From a virus, in the IMG/VR virus record IMGVR_UViG_3300036804_000189, positions 1 to 27,155 of that record: 27,155 nucleotides of DNA; one strand, 5' to 3'. A program made the position numbers and the translations under genes. This document shows positions 1,609 through 26,101 of this stretch, in pieces. The notes beneath the pieces were generated by a model. The model searched no databases, was not told the DNA's origin, and saw only the letters and a list, made by a program, of their open reading frames with translations. Each line of letters opens with the position of its first letter. Position 1 is the first letter of the stretch.

Positions 1609-2079
1609 CTACCGAAAATGCGCATCGGTTGACGGCTCGGGGCGATTTTCGGGTTTGGTTGCGCGCCGGCATTCGGCTGCGCGGCGATAGCGTTCTTCGT
1701 TGCGCTGGATGGCGTCGAGGCGGCGCCGCTGCGGGGTGCGGCTGTCGCCCTGGTACTCGGGCTCTTGCCACATTCTGCGCGTCTCGGCGTCGATGCTGCT
1801 GCTGCGATCGATGGCGCTCTTCCTGAGATCGTTTTGCTGGGCGTGGGTCGCCAGCCTACGGATATCGGCGATCGTGGGGCGCAGGCTCTGGGTGCGGCGC
1901 CATTCGCGGGCGGCCCATTGCACCTGGGAGGATGTGAACTCGGCGAGATCCTCGATCCAGTCGCGCAATTGCATCCGGCGCGTGGGTTCCGGGTCATCGC
2001 CCGTCCAGTAGTGACTGAGGAGGCTGGTGATCGTCAGGGTCATCGAGGTCATGGTCGCGGATGTAGTCCTGAAGGGCAT
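1609..2079 (-). CDS. Putative replication (helicase-loader-like) protein
   Basis: A 156-residue protein immediately downstream of, and overlapping, the initiator gene: the position of lambda P relative to O. Residues about 20-85 read 'LSHYW...DW...LAEF...V..A..EWRRT....RPTIADIRRL', a helical pattern seen at the N-terminus of phage replication P-like loader proteins. The C-terminal half is highly charged (Arg, Glu). The start at 2079 was chosen because a full GAAGGAGG lies five bases upstream, although this makes the gene overlap the initiator gene by 86 bases in another frame. ATGs at 2052 and 2043 are alternatives without such a site. The role rests on context plus a weak pattern. Confidence 0.5.
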   Translation of the reverse strand: MPFRTTSATMTSMTLTITSLLSHYWTGDDPEPTRRMQLRDWIEDLAEFTSSQVQWAAREWRRTQSLRPTIADIRRLATHAQQNDLRKSAIDRSSSIDAETRRMWQEPEYQGDSRTPQRRRLDAIQRNEERYRRAAECRRATKPENRPEPSTDAHFR

Positions 2080-2548
2080 TCCAGCCTCCTTCGTAGAGCT
2101 TTTCGACGGGGGATTTGCGGTGCGCTCGCGCGCGCGTGCGCGCGTTACTCCCCGCTAGGGGAGTCTTTCTTTGACTTCTACTTGACCTTTTGGGTGCAAT
2201 TCCTGCACCCGTGGGGTGCAATTCCTGCACCCGTTCGGTCGTAAAATGCACCGGTGCAGATTTCGCACCCGTTACCGGTGCAATTCCTGCACCCGTCAAG
2301 CGATAGCGGTTGGGGTTTGAATGAGCGCCGCCGCCACGCTCGAACGATACAAGACCGGTGTCGATCAGCATCTGGATCTGCTGGATCACGGTGCGGCGGC
2401 CGAGCCCGAGCTCGTTGGCGAGGCGACCGTAAGACGGCCAGCAGTCGCCGGCCTTGTTGGCATGCCATGCGAGCCTCAATAGCACCAGCTTCGCCGATGG
2501 CGTCGGGCAATCCTGCGCGAATGCCCATGCGAGGGCCGCGATGCTCAT
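1994..2548 (-). CDS. Replication initiator with N-terminal winged helix-turn-helix (lambda O-like role)
   Basis: A 184-residue protein. Residues about 15-75 form a helix-turn-helix_36-type DNA-binding domain: 'SAKLVLLRLAWHAN.....CWPSYGRLANELGLGRRTVIQQI' followed by 'L.DTGLVSFERGG', typical of phage replication initiators. Residues about 85-119 contain repeated TGAGIAP-like peptides because the DNA there consists of iterons. After that comes an Arg-rich stretch (about 123-147) and an acidic tail. Known lambda O proteins bind iterons placed inside their own gene, and the same layout is seen here. It starts three bases after the stop of the nuclease gene. The C-terminal half overlaps the next gene. 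I am confident of a DNA-binding replication protein, less so of the exact family. Confidence 0.75.
   Translation of the reverse strand: MSIAALAWAFAQDCPTPSAKLVLLRLAWHANKAGDCWPSYGRLANELGLGRRTVIQQIQMLIDTGLVSFERGGGAHSNPNRYRLTGAGIAPVTGAKSAPVHFTTERVQELHPTGAGIAPKRSSRSQRKTPLAGSNARTRARAHRKSPVEKLYEGGWNALQDYIRDHDLDDPDDHQPPQSLLDGR
2147..2164. repeat. Hairpin beside the origin, followed by a T-rich tract on the + strand
   Basis: ACTCCCC, GCTA, GGGGAGT: a perfect 7-bp stem with a 4-base loop. On the + strand it is followed by CTTTCTTT, so it looks like an intrinsic terminator for rightward transcription. No rightward gene lies here, so a structural role at the edge of the origin is equally likely. Confidence 0.4.
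2165..2296. other. Predicted replication origin: four dyad iterons plus AT-richer purine/pyrimidine tract
   Basis: Four copies of a dyad GGGTGCA-N5-TGCACCC, each followed by GT, lie inside the initiator gene. Copies at 2192-2212 and 2214-2234 are identical over 21 bp. The copy at 2277-2296 matches over 20 bp. The copy at 2253-2272 is degenerate in the middle. A TGCACCGGTGCA palindrome (2246-2257) sits between copies two and three. Downstream in the direction of the gene (2165-2191) lies a tract poor in G+C and purine-rich on the coding strand, the position of the melting region in lambda ori. Lambda ori has the same plan: four dyad iterons then an AT-rich tract within gene O. Assignment as the origin is inference from this match. 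Confidence 0.7.
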
Positions 2549-2551
2549 CGG

Positions 2552-2989
2552 CTAGCCCCTGATGCGGTGTGCCCTCGGAATGCCCCAGTTGTCGATGCAG
2601 GCGAGGGTTTCCTCGACGCTGCGAACGACCCCGAAAGGCGCGTGCGTATAGAGGATCGTGGTGGCTACGGCCTGTTGAGCAGGGCTCACCACACCATCAT
2701 CGGCTTTGACCTCGAGGAAGTAGGCGAGACCGCGGTAGAGCACAAAGATGTCCGGCACCCCGGCGATGCAGCCGCGGCCGGTCCTAATGCCCGGCACGCT
2801 GCCGGCATAGGCCGCCATGTCGACGCTCCACCAGGTGACGCCATCGCGTGACAGGCGGCCGGGGGCGCAGAGCTCGAGCTTGAGCGCGTCGGCGATCTGC
2901 TTGTGGAGGACGCTTTCGCGGATGACGGGGGCGTGAAGTTTGAAGCGCTTTACACCGGGTAAGGCGCCTTGCGCGGTTGTTCGGGCCAT
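2552..2989 (-). CDS. VRR-NUC family nuclease
   Basis: A 145-residue protein with the PD-(D/E)xK core of the VRR-NUC domain: Glu25 in the first helix, then GVPD (Asp80), FLEVK (Glu93, Lys95) and SPAQQ (about 102-106). Family members are structure-selective or replication-repair nucleases common in phage early operons. The length matches stand-alone phage VRR-NUC proteins. The ATG at 2989 has no strong ribosome site and overlaps the preceding gene by 40 bases, so coupling is likely. It is followed three bases later by the initiator gene, so it probably acts on replication or recombination intermediates. Confidence 0.85.
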   Translation of the reverse strand: MARTTAQGALPGVKRFKLHAPVIRESVLHKQIADALKLELCAPGRLSRDGVTWWSVDMAAYAGSVPGIRTGRGCIAGVPDIFVLYRGLAYFLEVKADDGVVSPAQQAVATTILYTHAPFGVVRSVEETLACIDNWGIPRAHRIRG

Positions 2990-3427: not shown

Positions 3428-3700
3428 TTACATCACCGCATTTGATAGGTTTTTATGCTTTCGCCTGGGAGGCGACCATGCTAACCGTTCGTCACCACTG
3501 GGGCGTGGAGGCGGGTAGATGTCGGGTCTGAGATCGTGTCGCGATATGCCGGTCGCGCTCTCAACCGCGAGTACCCGCTCGGCCGGGACGCGCGCCCATT
3601 TGGCGACCGCGGCGCGGGTAATGCCTAAGGCGCGGGCAATCTCCGCCAAGAGACCCGGATGCGCCCTAATCCGCTCCATGCCGAGCAGCACTTTGTCCAT
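3428..3700 (-). CDS. Cro/YdaS-like regulator
   Basis: A 90-residue protein. Residues about 17-45 (LAEIARALGITRAAVAKWARVPAERVLAVESATGIS) form the helix-turn-helix of the YdaS/Cro-type repressors, and 'HDLRPDIYP' is a common ending of that domain. The remaining about 27 residues are Pro/Arg/Lys-rich and probably disordered. It is the first gene of the leftward early operon and is divergent from the XRE repressor, the standard cro-versus-cI layout. It is expected to bind the operators in 3701-3783 and to favour lytic growth. A 17-bp dyad (3708-3724) lies 7 bases upstream of its ATG and is likely the operator of this promoter. Confidence 0.8.
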   Translation of the reverse strand: MDKVLLGMERIRAHPGLLAEIARALGITRAAVAKWARVPAERVLAVESATGISRHDLRPDIYPPPRPSGDERLAWSPPRRKHKNLSNAVM

Positions 3701-3707
3701 GGTCAGA

Positions 3708-3724
3708 GCTTACTGTGCGTAGGC
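3708..3724 (-). promoter_or_regulatory. Operator candidate in front of the Cro-like gene
   Basis: GCTTAC-TGTGC-GTAGGC, a 6-5-6 dyad with one mismatch. On the minus strand it ends in GTAAGCTC, exactly as the perfect dyad at 4218-4234 does on the plus strand. A possible -10 (TAAGCT) overlaps the right half, with TTGCCT 18 bases upstream as -35. Both hexamers are weak. This is the expected site for the repressor to shut off leftward early transcription. Confidence 0.5.
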
Positions 3725-3731
3725 GGAAACA

Positions 3732-3745
3732 GGCAAGCGATTGCC
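3732..3745. promoter_or_regulatory. Second dyad in the switch region
   Basis: GGCAA, GCGA, TTGCC: a perfect 5-4-5 dyad midway between the divergent start codons. It differs from the GCTTAC-N5-GTAAGC type and may be the site of the other regulator (Cro-like), or part of the -35 region of the leftward promoter. Confidence 0.35.
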
Positions 3746-3770
3746 AACCCAAGGGCGGCGATTTTCTAGC

Positions 3771-3783
3771 TACACTCCTTGCC
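3771..3783 (+). promoter_or_regulatory. Possible -10 of a leaderless repressor transcript
   Basis: TACACT at 3771-3776 lies seven bases before the repressor ATG (3784), and no ribosome site is visible (CTCCTTGCC). This geometry would give a leaderless mRNA, as known for lambda cI from PRM. No good -35 is seen at the right distance, so activation would be needed. Confidence 0.25.
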
Positions 3784-4146
3784 ATGCCTCTGATAGGCAC
3801 TCGCATCGCCTGGGCGCGGAAGAAAGCCGGCTACCACTCCCAGAGAACCTTTGCTACCGCGCTCGGGGTCAGCCGCGGGCTTGTCGGGCAGTGGGAGGCG
3901 CACGGCAAGACCCCGGGCCGCGACAACCTGGCAAAGATCGCTCTGCTCTGCGGGATTTCAGCCGATTACCTGCTCGGCGCTGCGTCCCTGGACGAGCGCA
4001 CGATCACCACCTCAATAGAACGCGAAGTGAAGCTGCTCCTCGCTTTCCGGCGCATGAGCCTCATCCAGCAGGAGCGCCTCGCGGAGTTCCTCGCGGATGA
4101 GGTCAAAGTCCCTCACGTGGTGAAGACGAAACCGCAGCCAGTCTAG
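3784..4146 (+). CDS. XRE-family prophage repressor (CI-like, no peptidase domain)
   Basis: A 120-residue protein. The helix-turn-helix spans about residues 5-40 (GTRIAWARKKAGYHSQRTFATALGVSRGLVGQWEAHGKTP), followed by 'NLAKIALLCGISADYLLGA', the usual ending of this domain. Residues 75-110 are helical and may dimerise. There is no S24 peptidase domain with Ala/Cys-Gly cleavage site and Ser-Lys pair, so RecA-stimulated self-cleavage as in lambda CI is not possible. A GTG at 3715 is in frame but would place 23 extra residues over the operator region; I prefer ATG 3784. It is divergent from the Cro-like gene and followed by the rightward operon, which it probably represses through the dyad at 4218-4234. 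Confidence 0.75.
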   Translation: MPLIGTRIAWARKKAGYHSQRTFATALGVSRGLVGQWEAHGKTPGRDNLAKIALLCGISADYLLGAASLDERTITTSIEREVKLLLAFRRMSLIQQERLAEFLADEVKVPHVVKTKPQPV

Positions 4147-4431: not shown

Positions 4432-4728
4432 ATGACCGCCGAGCAGGAGCTGGCGCTGTGGTTCTTGAGGCTCAACCTGCGCGAGCGGGCGAAGGCGCGG
4501 AACGCGCTTTCGCTTTGCGAACTGCGTCAGGTCGCCGAGGTCATCGACCTGGTGTCGATGGGGCCTTGCGCGAACTGCGATGGCGCGGGGGGATGGGACG
4601 ACATGGCGTTTTGCGGGAGAGAATGGGAGGAGATCTGGGCCGAGTGCCCGCAGTGCGGCGGCACCGGACGCAGCCCCGGCGAGCCGCAGCAGCTGACGAT
4701 GGAAGAGGTCTGCGATGCTGAGCGCTGA
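4432..4728 (+). CDS. Small CXXCXGXG zinc-finger protein
   Basis: A 98-residue protein. The N-terminal half is helical and charged. Residues 46-53 (CANCDGAG) and 72-79 (CPQCGGTG) are two CXXCXGXG motifs of the DnaJ cysteine-rich type, which together bind one Zn. No J-domain is present, so this is not a chaperone DnaJ. Phage recombination operons often carry such free zinc modules of unknown role. The start at 4432 is eight bases after GGAGG (4419-4423). It overlaps the exonuclease start by 14 bases, indicating coupling, and is the first gene of the rightward operon. Confidence 0.7.
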   Translation: MTAEQELALWFLRLNLRERAKARNALSLCELRQVAEVIDLVSMGPCANCDGAGGWDDMAFCGREWEEIWAECPQCGGTGRSPGEPQQLTMEEVCDAER

Positions 4729-5503
4729 GCAGAAGCGCCGGAGGGAAGGGAAGATCGGGGCCAGCTTTGTGCCGTGGCTGATGGCTGGCAATGAAGAGAA
4801 GATGCGCCGCGAGTGGATGCGGCTGGTCGAGCACCCGGACTATGTAGAGGACGATCTGTCGAGGGATTGGGGGCCGTCCTTTGGCGGCTACATCGAGCCC
4901 TTCGCGCTCGATTGGCACGAGGCGAAGACGGGGTTGCCGCTGACCCGGCGAGGGGAGTGGGTCGAGCATCCGCAGTTCCCGTATGTGGGCTGCACGCTCG
5001 ATAGTTACCGCGAGGCGGATCACTGCGTCGTTGATTGCAAGGTGCTGAGCCGCTGGGCGAACCTGGATGAGCAGAGAGCCTTCTATACGCCGCAGCTCTT
5101 GGTGCAGTGCCGCTCTGTGCGGGCGCAGTTGGCTTCGCTGCTCATCGTCTACGGCGGCGAGGAGCCGGCCGAATACCCCGCCGGCTGGGACCAGGAATAC
5201 GAGGCCCTCGTGTGGGACCGGGTGCAGTGGTTCTGGGAGCGGGTGGAGAGCTTGCAGCCGCCGGTAGCGTTGCCGGAGGTGAAGGGCAGCGTGCCGCCGG
5301 TTAAGGCCTATGACATGGGGAGCAGCAATGCCTGGGCAGCGCAGGCGGGTCTGTGGCTGGCTACAAAGGCACCCGCGGCAAATTTCGCCAGCGCGGCGAA
5401 GGAACTCAAAGGCCTCACCCCGCCGGACGCCGCCCGCGCGTATGGGCACGGGGTCGCGGTCAGCCGCTCTAAGGCGGGGGCGTTGAGCATTCGGGAGGGT
5501 TGA
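4715..5503 (+). CDS. YqaJ-like / lambda-exo-type recombination exonuclease
   Basis: A 262-residue protein of the PD-(D/E)xK recombinase nuclease group. Motifs in order: 'GPSFGGYIEPFALDWHEAKTG' (about 53-73; the entrance helix with Glu61 or Glu69), 'GCTLDSY' (Asp96) and 'VVDCKV' (Asp107, Lys109), then Gln91-type helices around 'YTPQLLVQ'. The family digests one strand of double-stranded ends to expose ssDNA for the annealing protein. The following gene is an ERF annealing protein, so the pair forms a Red/Erf-type module. The third acidic residue is Asp rather than the common Glu. The C-terminal 60 residues look linker-like. The start overlaps the upstream gene by 14 bases with GAAGAGG before it. 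Confidence 0.75.
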   Translation: MLSAEQKRRREGKIGASFVPWLMAGNEEKMRREWMRLVEHPDYVEDDLSRDWGPSFGGYIEPFALDWHEAKTGLPLTRRGEWVEHPQFPYVGCTLDSYREADHCVVDCKVLSRWANLDEQRAFYTPQLLVQCRSVRAQLASLLIVYGGEEPAEYPAGWDQEYEALVWDRVQWFWERVESLQPPVALPEVKGSVPPVKAYDMGSSNAWAAQAGLWLATKAPAANFASAAKELKGLTPPDAARAYGHGVAVSRSKAGALSIREG

Positions 5504-5504
5504 T

Positions 5505-6386
5505 ATGAACGACATTGCAGTCATCGAGGAGCACGTGCCGCTGGTTCCGGTTGCACCGCAGCCGGCCTTTGTGCTCTTGGCCTCGCCCTCCTGCGGCCAG
5601 GTGTGCAGTGCGCTGGCGATTGCCCAGGGGGCCTTCAAGACGCCCAAGCGGACAAAGGAAGCGACGATCAAGGGCCAGGGCTATGCCTACACCTACCGCT
5701 ACGCGCCGCTCGAGGAGATCGTCGACGCGGTCAAGGACGCGCTGGCGCAGAACGGGCTGGCCCGGCACCAGTATCTGGTGAGCCGCGGCTCGCAGCCGGT
5801 GATGCGCACCATCATCTGGCATGCGAGCGGTGAGTGGTTAGCTTCTGATTATCCCATTCATCCGACCAAGGAAGGCGCGCAGGGTTTCGCCAGCGGAGTG
5901 ACATATGCGCGCCGGTATGGGTTGAGCCTAGCGCTCGGGCTCGCGCCCGAGGACGACGACGACGGCAATCTAGCCGATGCTACGGCTGCCGAGGTTAAAG
6001 GTAAGCAGGCGGCATCGCGGCCAAAGGCACCTGCGCCGCTGCCGCCCGAGCCAAAAGCCGCCGTGCCCGAGGTCTTTGATCCCGAGACCGGCGAGCTCCA
6101 GCCGGCGAAGCCGCACCGGCTCGAGGTACCGCTGAGCCCAAAGGGCGGCCGCAACTGGCCAATCTGGGGCGCGAAGTTGATCGGCGCCTACGGCCACTCC
6201 CAGACGGTCGAGGAGCTGCGCCGCTGGGAGGAGTTCTGCAAGACCGAGATCACCGAGGCGCAGGAGGACGCGCCGCGGGTGTTCAAGAGCATTACCGGCG
6301 CGTTCGAGAAGGCGTTTCAGCGCCTCGGGCCGCCAGCGGATTTCATGCCGGCGCGCGATCATGAAAGCGCAGACCTTCCACGTTAA
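5505..6386 (+). CDS. erf: ERF-family single-strand annealing protein
   Basis: A 293-residue protein. Residues about 35-165 carry the ERF core: 'ALAIAQGAFKTPKRTKEATIKG...YTYRYAPLEEIVDAVKDALAQNGLARHQYL', then 'HASGEWLASDYPI' and 'AQGFASGVTYARRYGLSLALGLAPEDDDDGN', all typical of ERF recombinases. The middle (about 175-215) is a Pro/Ala/Lys-rich linker and the C-terminal 80 residues are helical. ERF proteins anneal complementary ssDNA, and in P22 Erf circularises the terminally redundant genome. It is paired with the nuclease gene just upstream (one-base gap). GGGAGGG lies five bases before the ATG. Confidence 0.9.
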   Translation: MNDIAVIEEHVPLVPVAPQPAFVLLASPSCGQVCSALAIAQGAFKTPKRTKEATIKGQGYAYTYRYAPLEEIVDAVKDALAQNGLARHQYLVSRGSQPVMRTIIWHASGEWLASDYPIHPTKEGAQGFASGVTYARRYGLSLALGLAPEDDDDGNLADATAAEVKGKQAASRPKAPAPLPPEPKAAVPEVFDPETGELQPAKPHRLEVPLSPKGGRNWPIWGAKLIGAYGHSQTVEELRRWEEFCKTEITEAQEDAPRVFKSITGAFEKAFQRLGPPADFMPARDHESADLPR

Positions 6387-8392: not shown

Positions 8393-9319
8393 ATGATCAA
8401 CGCACTGCGGAACCTTTTGCGTCTTCTTCTCATCGTTGCGTGCCAATTCACCGTATCGGCATGCCACGCAGAAACCTGGACGGTCGCGGCGCCGGTTATC
8501 GTGCCAACGCTACCGAGCGAACAGAATGCGGTTTACCAACCCGCGGTTATCCCTCCACAAAACGGTCAACCGTGGCAGATGCTCTATAGCGGGGGCTGGG
8601 ATCATCCGGGCATCTATTACGCGACATGCCCTGCGGGGGCCGATCCGAGCCTGTCGCAGAATTGGACGAAACAGGGATTGATCTGGGGCGGTGTCGACTT
8701 TAACAACGTCACGATTACGCCGGATGGCAATTACACGCTCCTCTTCTCGTATCAGGATCAGATTTGGGGCGCAACTTCGCCAACAATTCATCCACAAAGT
8801 GCCACGACGTCGTGGAACAATATCTCTGTTTTGCTGAACCCCGGCGCTGCCGGCGCAGACGCGCACGAGGTCGGGCCGGTGCTGGTGACGGACGGTACGG
8901 ATTCGTATCTCTCGTACGTTTCGGCCGATCAGAATTACGACATTTGGCAAGCGTATCTGGCGAAGTTCAACGGCGGCGTTTTTGCGAAGGACCCGCGCGG
9001 GCCGGTCACCTCTCTTCAGTTAGGGACGGGGGCGTTTGGGATCACCGGAAACATCACCAAGATCAACGGAATGTTTAATGCGTGGCAGGGCAATGGGCCG
9101 GTGAAGGGAAATGATGCAACGCAGCTTTATCACGTCCAATCGCCGGATTTGTGGAACTGGACGTTTCTAAACAATGCGCAGCCGGTGATCGTGCCGACCA
9201 GTGGTTTCGAGCAAGCCGCAGACGGCTACGCGGTCGAGTACGACGGCGTCTCGTATCTTTTTTACGATGAGGTCAACAATAGATTGGAACACGCGCAAAT
9301 CAGGATCGCCAGCCATTAG
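8393..9319 (+). CDS. Exported beta-propeller-like protein (GH43/GH32-like fold), likely lysogenic conversion gene
   Basis: A 308-residue protein. Residues 8-24 are a signal-peptide core; cleavage after Ala26 (CHA|ET) is possible, and Cys17 or Cys24 could also be lipid-modified. The mature part has repeated blade-like units: 'PWQMLYSGGWDHPGIYYATC' (about 56-76), 'DGNYTLLFSYQDQIWGATS' (about 104-122), 'DGTDSYLSYVSADQNYDIWQAYLAKF', 'TKINGMFNAWQGNG...QLYHVQSPDLWNWT' and 'DGYAVEYDGVSYLFYDEVNNRLEHAQI'. This resembles five-bladed glycoside hydrolase propellers, but I cannot assign catalytic acids, so activity is unproven. GC is visibly lower than the neighbours (29 of 60 at 8701-8760 against 44 of 60 at 7621-7680). 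GGAGGGATGAGAG precedes the ATG. Its place between attP and the late operon is typical of cargo genes. Confidence 0.6.
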   Translation: MINALRNLLRLLLIVACQFTVSACHAETWTVAAPVIVPTLPSEQNAVYQPAVIPPQNGQPWQMLYSGGWDHPGIYYATCPAGADPSLSQNWTKQGLIWGGVDFNNVTITPDGNYTLLFSYQDQIWGATSPTIHPQSATTSWNNISVLLNPGAAGADAHEVGPVLVTDGTDSYLSYVSADQNYDIWQAYLAKFNGGVFAKDPRGPVTSLQLGTGAFGITGNITKINGMFNAWQGNGPVKGNDATQLYHVQSPDLWNWTFLNNAQPVIVPTSGFEQAADGYAVEYDGVSYLFYDEVNNRLEHAQIRIASH

Positions 9320-24819: not shown

Positions 24820-26055
24820 TTACTGGATGTCGGCAACCGTAACGACCCACTCCGGACGGATCAAGAGACTGCCGAAAAGTATGTCGAGACGGGTAATAAA
24901 CTGATCCGACAGCACCGCGTAATCGGTGATCATCCTCAAGGAGATACCGTCGTAGGTTTCTCTTGCGGCTTCATGCACCCCTCTGGGCAACTCGAGCTCG
25001 GCGGTCGCCATGGTGACCGCCTCCGCGTAGTAGGCAAAATTGCCGCGGTAGGATTCGCCGGCGGGAGTGGCAAAGACGATCGCCGCGCCGGCAGCCGGGC
25101 TCGCGGTAACCGTCTGGAACGGCACGGGCAGCGTTGCCGGCGGCGGCGAAGGGTTCGACACGGGCGGATTGATCGGCGGATAGATGGGGATCGTCGTCGC
25201 CCCCGCGAGCACGGGTGCCGTCACCACAAACTGCGCGAGCGTGCCGTTCGAGGCCTTGGTGACCCTGTTGACACTGTCGACGCCAGCGATCGTCAGCACG
25301 TCGCCGGGATTGAGCGGCCCGGCGAGCGCGGTCACCGTCAGAACGGCGCCGGTCTGGTTCGCCCCCGCGACGGTCGGCGGCGCACCGTAGGCACCGGTCG
25401 TGTGGATCTGCGTCGTCTGGTCCATCCCCCAGTCGAAACCGAGGGTGTCGACCGACATCGTGCCGCGGATGTACTGGTCCGAAATTCTGACTTGCGGATT
25501 AAAGAGGCCCATGAGGCTCGTCACGGTGCGCGCCTGGGTTAAGGGATCCATGACGATAAAGCGGTCGTTTCGGGGCGCCCCGTTCTTATCGAGGACTGCC
25601 CCGGCAGCGAGCCAGGTGCCGGCGGATGGGGTGATGAGGTTGCCGCTGGTATCGGTGTTCTGCACCAGGTTCGAGGCCTGGTTCATCCCGCCCATGATCT
25701 GCACGGCGACGCCGCCGGCGAGCACGTTGACCGCCGGGGCCAATATCCTCTGGCTGTAATCGTCGAGGTTGAGGGCGCGCTCAGCGGAGGAGAAACTCAC
25801 ATCGACACCCATCTGGGTCGCCAGCACGAGCGTCGTATTCTGCTCGTTGGTCGACTGCGGGACGGCGGTCGGCCCAGTGCGCAGCGTATAGTCGTTGGGC
25901 AGCCTGATACGCAGTTGGCTGCCGATCTTGGCGCCGGCGCGGCCGAACTCCTCGTCGAACTGCCTCCCGATGGTACGCAGAAACCAGTTGCTGTTGCGAA
26001 ACAAACGCACTGCTTCGCGCGTCACCATATCAATGGTTAAGAGCGAGTTCGCCAC
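24820..26055 (-). CDS. Major coat protein (P22 gp5-like, HK97 fold with insertion domain)
   Basis: A 411-residue protein starting at GTG 26055 behind GGGGGA; this gives the family N-terminus 'xANSLLTIDMVTREAVRLFRNSNWF', whereas TTG 26085 would add ten unlikely residues. The body has 'GAKIGSQLRIRLPNDY' and 'PAVNVLAGGVAVQIMGG' in the usual places, and 'NPGDVLTIAGVDSVNRVTKASNGTLAQFVV' (about 249-279) belongs to the telokin-like insertion domain known from P22 coat. A Pro-rich stretch (about 290-313) interrupts that domain. It forms the icosahedral head shell with the scaffold encoded upstream. Confidence 0.85.
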   Translation of the reverse strand: MANSLLTIDMVTREAVRLFRNSNWFLRTIGRQFDEEFGRAGAKIGSQLRIRLPNDYTLRTGPTAVPQSTNEQNTTLVLATQMGVDVSFSSAERALNLDDYSQRILAPAVNVLAGGVAVQIMGGMNQASNLVQNTDTSGNLITPSAGTWLAAGAVLDKNGAPRNDRFIVMDPLTQARTVTSLMGLFNPQVRISDQYIRGTMSVDTLGFDWGMDQTTQIHTTGAYGAPPTVAGANQTGAVLTVTALAGPLNPGDVLTIAGVDSVNRVTKASNGTLAQFVVTAPVLAGATTIPIYPPINPPVSNPSPPPATLPVPFQTVTASPAAGAAIVFATPAGESYRGNFAYYAEAVTMATAELELPRGVHEAARETYDGISLRMITDYAVLSDQFITRLDILFGSLLIRPEWVVTVADIQ

Positions 26056-26101
26056 GGAAAATCCCCCGGCGCCCGCGCTAGCCAAAAGGCGCGCCTGGGC
26101 G

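Follow-up and report, generated by a model that had tools for sequence, protein, structure and literature searches.

The segment from 2122 to 2296 of the window, the complete IMG/VR record of 27,155 bases analysed here, is interpreted as a phage replication origin that lies inside the gene of its own initiator and follows the lambda plan in a different protein family. Judging from the sequence and its comparison with relatives, we assign this reading, including putative protein-iteron binding and recruitment of a helicase, a probability of about 90%. It is based on a number of dyads well above chance, a match to PHROG replication families, the location of most viral arrays among the matches listed inside initiator genes, direct repeats in most groups collected without regard to iterons, the identity of spacers across reading frames, an A+T-rich flank and the helicase or loader genes downstream in relatives. 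The absence of a GC-skew signal, a weakly supported loader without relatives, a possible recent duplication of the repeats and an initiator outside the Phage_rep_O family count against it. The repeats, the predicted fold, their placement, the constraint at the DNA level and the recurrence of the A+T-rich flank are each evident from sequence and comparison and are described below.

Genomic context

The record represents a linear fragment of a temperate phage genome. It encodes a P22-type coat protein (PF11651, E 5e-29), P22-type tail genes, an integrase and RecE-like and Erf recombination genes. The coat protein (24820-26085) shares 59% identity with its counterpart in Pseudomonas phage PAE2, a similarity which suggests a Pseudomonas-related or other proteobacterial host. 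A RecE-like exonuclease gene beside an Erf-type annealing protein (4715-6386) forms a mixed recombination pair. The integrase is followed by a 308-aa ORF without Pfam match, possibly a cargo gene (8393-9319, plus strand), and an HNH endonuclease gene (PF13392; 12784-13314, plus strand) is located inside the minus-strand late region. The order of the early genes, from the YdaS/Cro-like gene to the loader candidate, is similar to that in the right early operon of lambdoid phages:

3715-4146, plus strand: CI-like gene, divergent from the YdaS/Cro-like gene
3428-3700, minus strand: YdaS/Cro-like gene, upstream of the VRR-NUC-like, initiator and loader-candidate genes
2552-2989, minus strand: VRR-NUC-like gene
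1994-2548, minus strand: O-like replication initiator gene, 184 aa (PF13730 HTH_36, PHROG, AlphaFold)
2294-2548, minus strand: coding region of the predicted winged-helix DNA-binding domain, residues 1-85 (AlphaFold), with R52 near the start of the recognition helix
1609-2079, minus strand: candidate helicase loader ORF (phrog_2289, weak)

The initiator protein

The 184-aa product matched HTH_36 (PF13730) with an E-value of 8e-17; its PHROG matches, at about 2e-18, were to families of replication-initiation and O-like proteins (phrog_8540, E 2e-18). AlphaFold modelled a winged helix at residues 1-70 (pLDDT about 91-98) with the recognition helix at residues 51-64. The stretch encoded by the iterons was modelled with low confidence, suggesting a linker that is probably disordered. 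A Foldseek search against viral proteins retrieved replication protein O of phage Min27 together with many phage helix-turn-helix proteins. The initiator is short and lacks a recognised C-terminal domain. Phage_rep_O (PF04492) was absent from it (E-values up to 1), whereas lambda O (6e-36), P22 gp18 (7e-38) and phi80 gp15 (6e-25) all belong to this family. A single-sequence scan revealed no close relatives of the initiator and no DNA match was obtained among phage records; the named-phage relatives listed shared just 28-46% identity with it.

The iteron array and its flank

A pattern search confirmed the four dyad iterons that the earlier note had placed in the initiator gene, two of them identical over 21 bp, one over 20 bp and one degenerate. 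GGTGCA-N5-TGCACC occurs at 2193-2296 in three perfect copies and a degenerate one, followed by several further elements in the gene direction:

2277-2296, minus strand: iteron 1 (first in the gene direction), perfect, read GAGIAP
2253-2272, minus strand: iteron 2, degenerate, one mismatch to GGTGCA-N5-TGCACC, read GAKSAP
2215-2234, minus strand: iteron 3, perfect, in the other frame, read RVQELHP
2193-2212, minus strand: iteron 4, perfect, read GAGIAP
2164-2191, minus strand: A+T-rich, purine-rich tract (AAAAGGTCAAGTAGAAGTCAAAGAAAGA; 68% A+T and 82% purine over 28 bp), candidate DNA unwinding element
2148-2163, minus strand: hairpin CTCCCCTAGCGGGGAG seen in the sequence, after the A+T-rich tract
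2122-2144, minus strand: alternating C-G tract with inverted repeat (CGCGCGCACGCGCGCG) seen in the sequence, after the A+T tract

Over 20 bp the three perfect copies do not differ from one another, and the copy at 2253 shares 75% identity. Positions 2192-2212 and 2214-2234 agree over 21 bp (GGGTGCAATTCCTGCACCCGT) and are of the GGGTGCA-N5-TGCACCC type. When up to two mismatches were allowed, the 27-kb window contained eight sites compared to 1.6 expected, and none of the shuffles reached eight. All three exact sites and the sole one-mismatch site fall in a single cluster of 100 bp.

The initiator gene has an overall A+T content of 39%, and the first 40 bp after the array reach 55%. The composition of 2164-2191 bears out the description of an AT-richer, purine-rich tract 3' of the iterons in the gene direction. 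Across 40 clusters of relatives, the 40 bp after the last iteron contained 54% A+T versus 43% in the gene (p 3.5e-8), and the baseline was regained by 40-80 bp. The purine bias is seen in the window and was not general after the arrays of relatives (p 0.69). Inverted repeats were enriched after the A+T tract, but several of them are further iteron copies, and thus no claim is made for a hairpin. CG-rich tracts after the array were also observed in several relatives (L063, L064, L080, L098, L226). GC skew displayed no inflection at 2.2 kb, a measure that is uninformative in a linear fragment.

Constraint on DNA and peptide

The earlier note had read the repeats as TGAGIAP-type peptides. This holds for two of the four copies, which encode GAGIAP; one of the others encodes GAKSAP and one is read as RVQELHP in another frame. 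The iterons start 24, 38 and 22 bp apart in the gene direction, and identical iteron DNA is therefore read in two frames. This frame shift among the window copies is the best evidence that the DNA is kept.

The same was observed in relatives. Among 40 clusters (60% identity) with GGTGCA iterons, 28 used more than one frame for their iterons. The five spacer bases are not fixed by the search pattern and hence provide an unselected measure of identity: it amounted to 0.74 for copies of one gene that are read in different frames, 0.71 for copies sharing a frame and 0.31 when different genes were compared. These values contradict the proposal that selection keeps a linker peptide of the GAxxAP type and that the similarity of the DNA is a by-product, a very unlikely explanation also in view of the segment being modelled as disordered. 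In its favour, the frames were used unevenly, with 94 copies in phase 0 (GAxxAP), 51 in phase 2 (VQxxHP) and 7 in phase 1 (CxxCT). The Cys-rich reading is disfavoured, so that coding does constrain the array and the peptide is not wholly free. Free variation of the iteron DNA around a conserved peptide had been named beforehand as evidence against an embedded origin; the opposite was found, with the DNA kept across frames while the peptide changes. The high identity of the copies could in part result from recent duplication rather than selection.

Surveys of related loci

Two surveys of relatives were conducted, one starting from the array and one from the gene. In the former, IMG/VR was scanned for GGTGCA-N5-TGCACC occurring twice within 2-32 bp, ignoring genes, which yielded at least 119 contigs. 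The winged-helix profile used for scoring these loci was built solely from the window and ten named-phage relatives. Among the matches listed, 102 of 119 arrays lay inside an O-like winged-helix ORF, closely after the domain; most of the remaining arrays listed were found by inspection in helix-turn-helix-like ORFs or at truncated ends. The arrays of relatives comprised two to six copies. In one locus (L090, array at 1387) the array lies upstream of the sequence that apparently encodes the HTH and is N-terminal to it, which sets this locus apart from the rest of the class.

In bacterial genomes, 16 of 119 loci were of the initiator-embedded kind and most others were scattered palindrome families in few taxa. 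Thiobacillus and Gallionella-type assemblies (L135, L136, L140, L144, L164 and others) contained many GGTGCA-N5-TGCACC pairs per genome outside O-like genes. These genomes serve as a control: the presence of the pattern is not enough to infer an initiator. The window array could in principle derive from a mobile or recombinational family of palindromes with no tie to replication, and the scattered copies speak for this. This origin of the repeats is highly improbable, given that the exact and one-mismatch sites of the window cluster within 100 bp of one gene and that the viral arrays among the matches listed reside so consistently in initiator genes.

The gene-first survey was blind to iterons. 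It comprised 251 loci collected by protein similarity and sorted into 62 groups, in which the 330 bp after the winged helix were scored for direct repeats. Significant direct repeats were present in 51 of the 62 groups, and the embedded-iteron plan is thus general to the HTH_36 O-like class. The mean repeat score was 12.2, versus 2.6 upstream and 2.6 downstream, with a spacing peak at 21-23 bp. The dyads varied widely among these groups and included, for example, GGTGAC-N5-GTCACC and GGGTCG-N5-CGACCC. Two neighbour alignments that had not been filtered, A1 and A6, combined unrelated proteins; A1 served for family counts only and A6 was dropped.

Candidate specificity residue R52

Arginine at position 52 was invariant in 37 of 37 aligned GGTGCA-iteron initiators and present in 118 of 118 iteron-selected initiators. 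In the iteron-blind set it occurred in 8 of 10 TGCA groups versus 18 of 52 others (Fisher p 0.013, the groups being taken without regard to relatedness). The covariation between iterons and HTH residues that had been anticipated was observed insofar as R52 goes with TGCA iterons, and it failed in a forward prediction. A serine at position 52 was predicted for initiators with GGGGCA-N5-TGCCCC; only five contigs matched this dyad, and in L496 and L498, the two in which a winged-helix gene was evident, the residue was arginine. Arginine is thus common and not sufficient, and the covariation is suggestive only.

From iterons to helicase

The steps from binding and dimerisation through unwinding and helicase loading to origin activity are inferred. 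The winged helix of the initiator would bind the GGTGCA-N5-TGCACC dyads, probably as a dimer, and the protein would assemble on the four iterons and open the adjacent A+T-rich tract. A helicase would be recruited through the product of the next gene or a host loader. The product of 1609-2079 weakly matched the helicase loader family phrog_2289 (E 0.0015). Its predicted structure was all-helical with low confidence, a structure search gave no meaningful match and a single-sequence scan detected no homologue in the collections searched. The listed start of this ORF overlaps the initiator gene, so that the start codon may lie later. In relatives, the downstream genes encode DnaB-like helicases, primase-helicases, DnaC-like loaders and a lambda P-like loader.

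Many repressors use winged helices, and most of the best PDB fold matches of the initiator were repressors. Together with the dyad nature of the sites, this is compatible with an operator, at which the winged-helix protein blocks elongation or autoregulates inside its own gene while replication starts elsewhere. We regard this as unlikely, because the sites are located about 250-350 bp inside the gene and not at a promoter, the protein matches PHROG replication-initiation families, its relatives are encoded beside helicase or loader genes, and arrays of several copies with an A+T flank recur. Autoregulation could moreover coexist with origin function.

Comparison with known origins

The lambda origin in gene O likewise consists of four intragenic dyad iterons after the N-terminal DNA-binding domain, with an adjacent A+T tract of about 40 bp. 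This tract is opened when O binds (PMC5043065), and gene O of lambda and Stx phages is described as harbouring an origin with iterons and an A+T tract (PMC7466680). The plan proposed earlier, i.e. a winged-helix gene with dyad iterons and an adjacent A+T tract, was found in the window and recurs across the family. The statement that iteron and protein differ from those of lambda was equally correct: lambda O belongs to PF04492 and its iteron is ATCCCTCAAAACGAGGGA, whereas the window protein belongs to HTH_36, has no PF04492 domain and is associated with GGGTGCA-N5-TGCACCC, and ATCCCTCAAAACGAGGGA is absent. In lambda the initiator gene is followed by a helicase-loader gene, while the identity of the loader in the window is uncertain.

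The origin in P22 gene 18 consists of intragenic iterons and an A+T tract, followed by a C-run/G-run inverted repeat at the place which corresponds to the hairpin of the window. P22 shares both layout and coat type with the window phage. It differs in that gp18 belongs to PF04492, the next gene encodes a DnaB-type helicase and the iteron sequence is unlike that of the window. In lambda, P22 and phi80, the annotated origins occupy the corresponding position within the initiator gene. Gene 18 of Salmonella phage L encodes a distant O-like protein and has its own distinct intragenic repeats, which were read as an origin (PMC8022706). The repeat unit of phage L, TGTCCAACGGA, differs from the window iteron; the likeness to the window is drawn from its published description. 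The HTH_36 initiators of PHROGs 8540, 1032, 270 and 391 share the domain and the place of the iterons with the window, as well as the A+T flank where the iterons are of the GGTGCA type; many of them carry other dyads. Pseudomonas phage PseuP_222 has TGCA-type repeats.

The earlier note had considered the initiator and its iteron a possibly undescribed pair. The pair is new with respect to the literature searched, a partial search in which no paper on the GGTGCA/HTH_36 combination or a survey of the class was found. Sequence data show that it is not rare, and differences in intragenic iterons between phages are known (PMC8022706), having already been shown in lambda, P22, phi80 and L.

Implications

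With the window, as a single case, a textbook design reaches a further initiator family; the phage in question has coat and tail genes of the P22 type. The surveys indicate that hundreds of phages share the intragenic-iteron design. On a more tentative level, somewhat short of an even chance, the HTH_36 O-like initiators may constitute a large and scarcely described class. Each gene would carry its own origin in the codons of the linker, and initiator and iteron would therefore travel and diversify as a unit. A recognition rule for the winged helix, for example R52 with TGCA half-sites, might then be readable from the natural pairs. Since the gene of the binding protein includes the sites of that protein, sequence data alone give direct access to hundreds of natural protein-DNA pairs. 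These pairs make initiator specificity testable at scale and phage origins annotatable from the gene alone.
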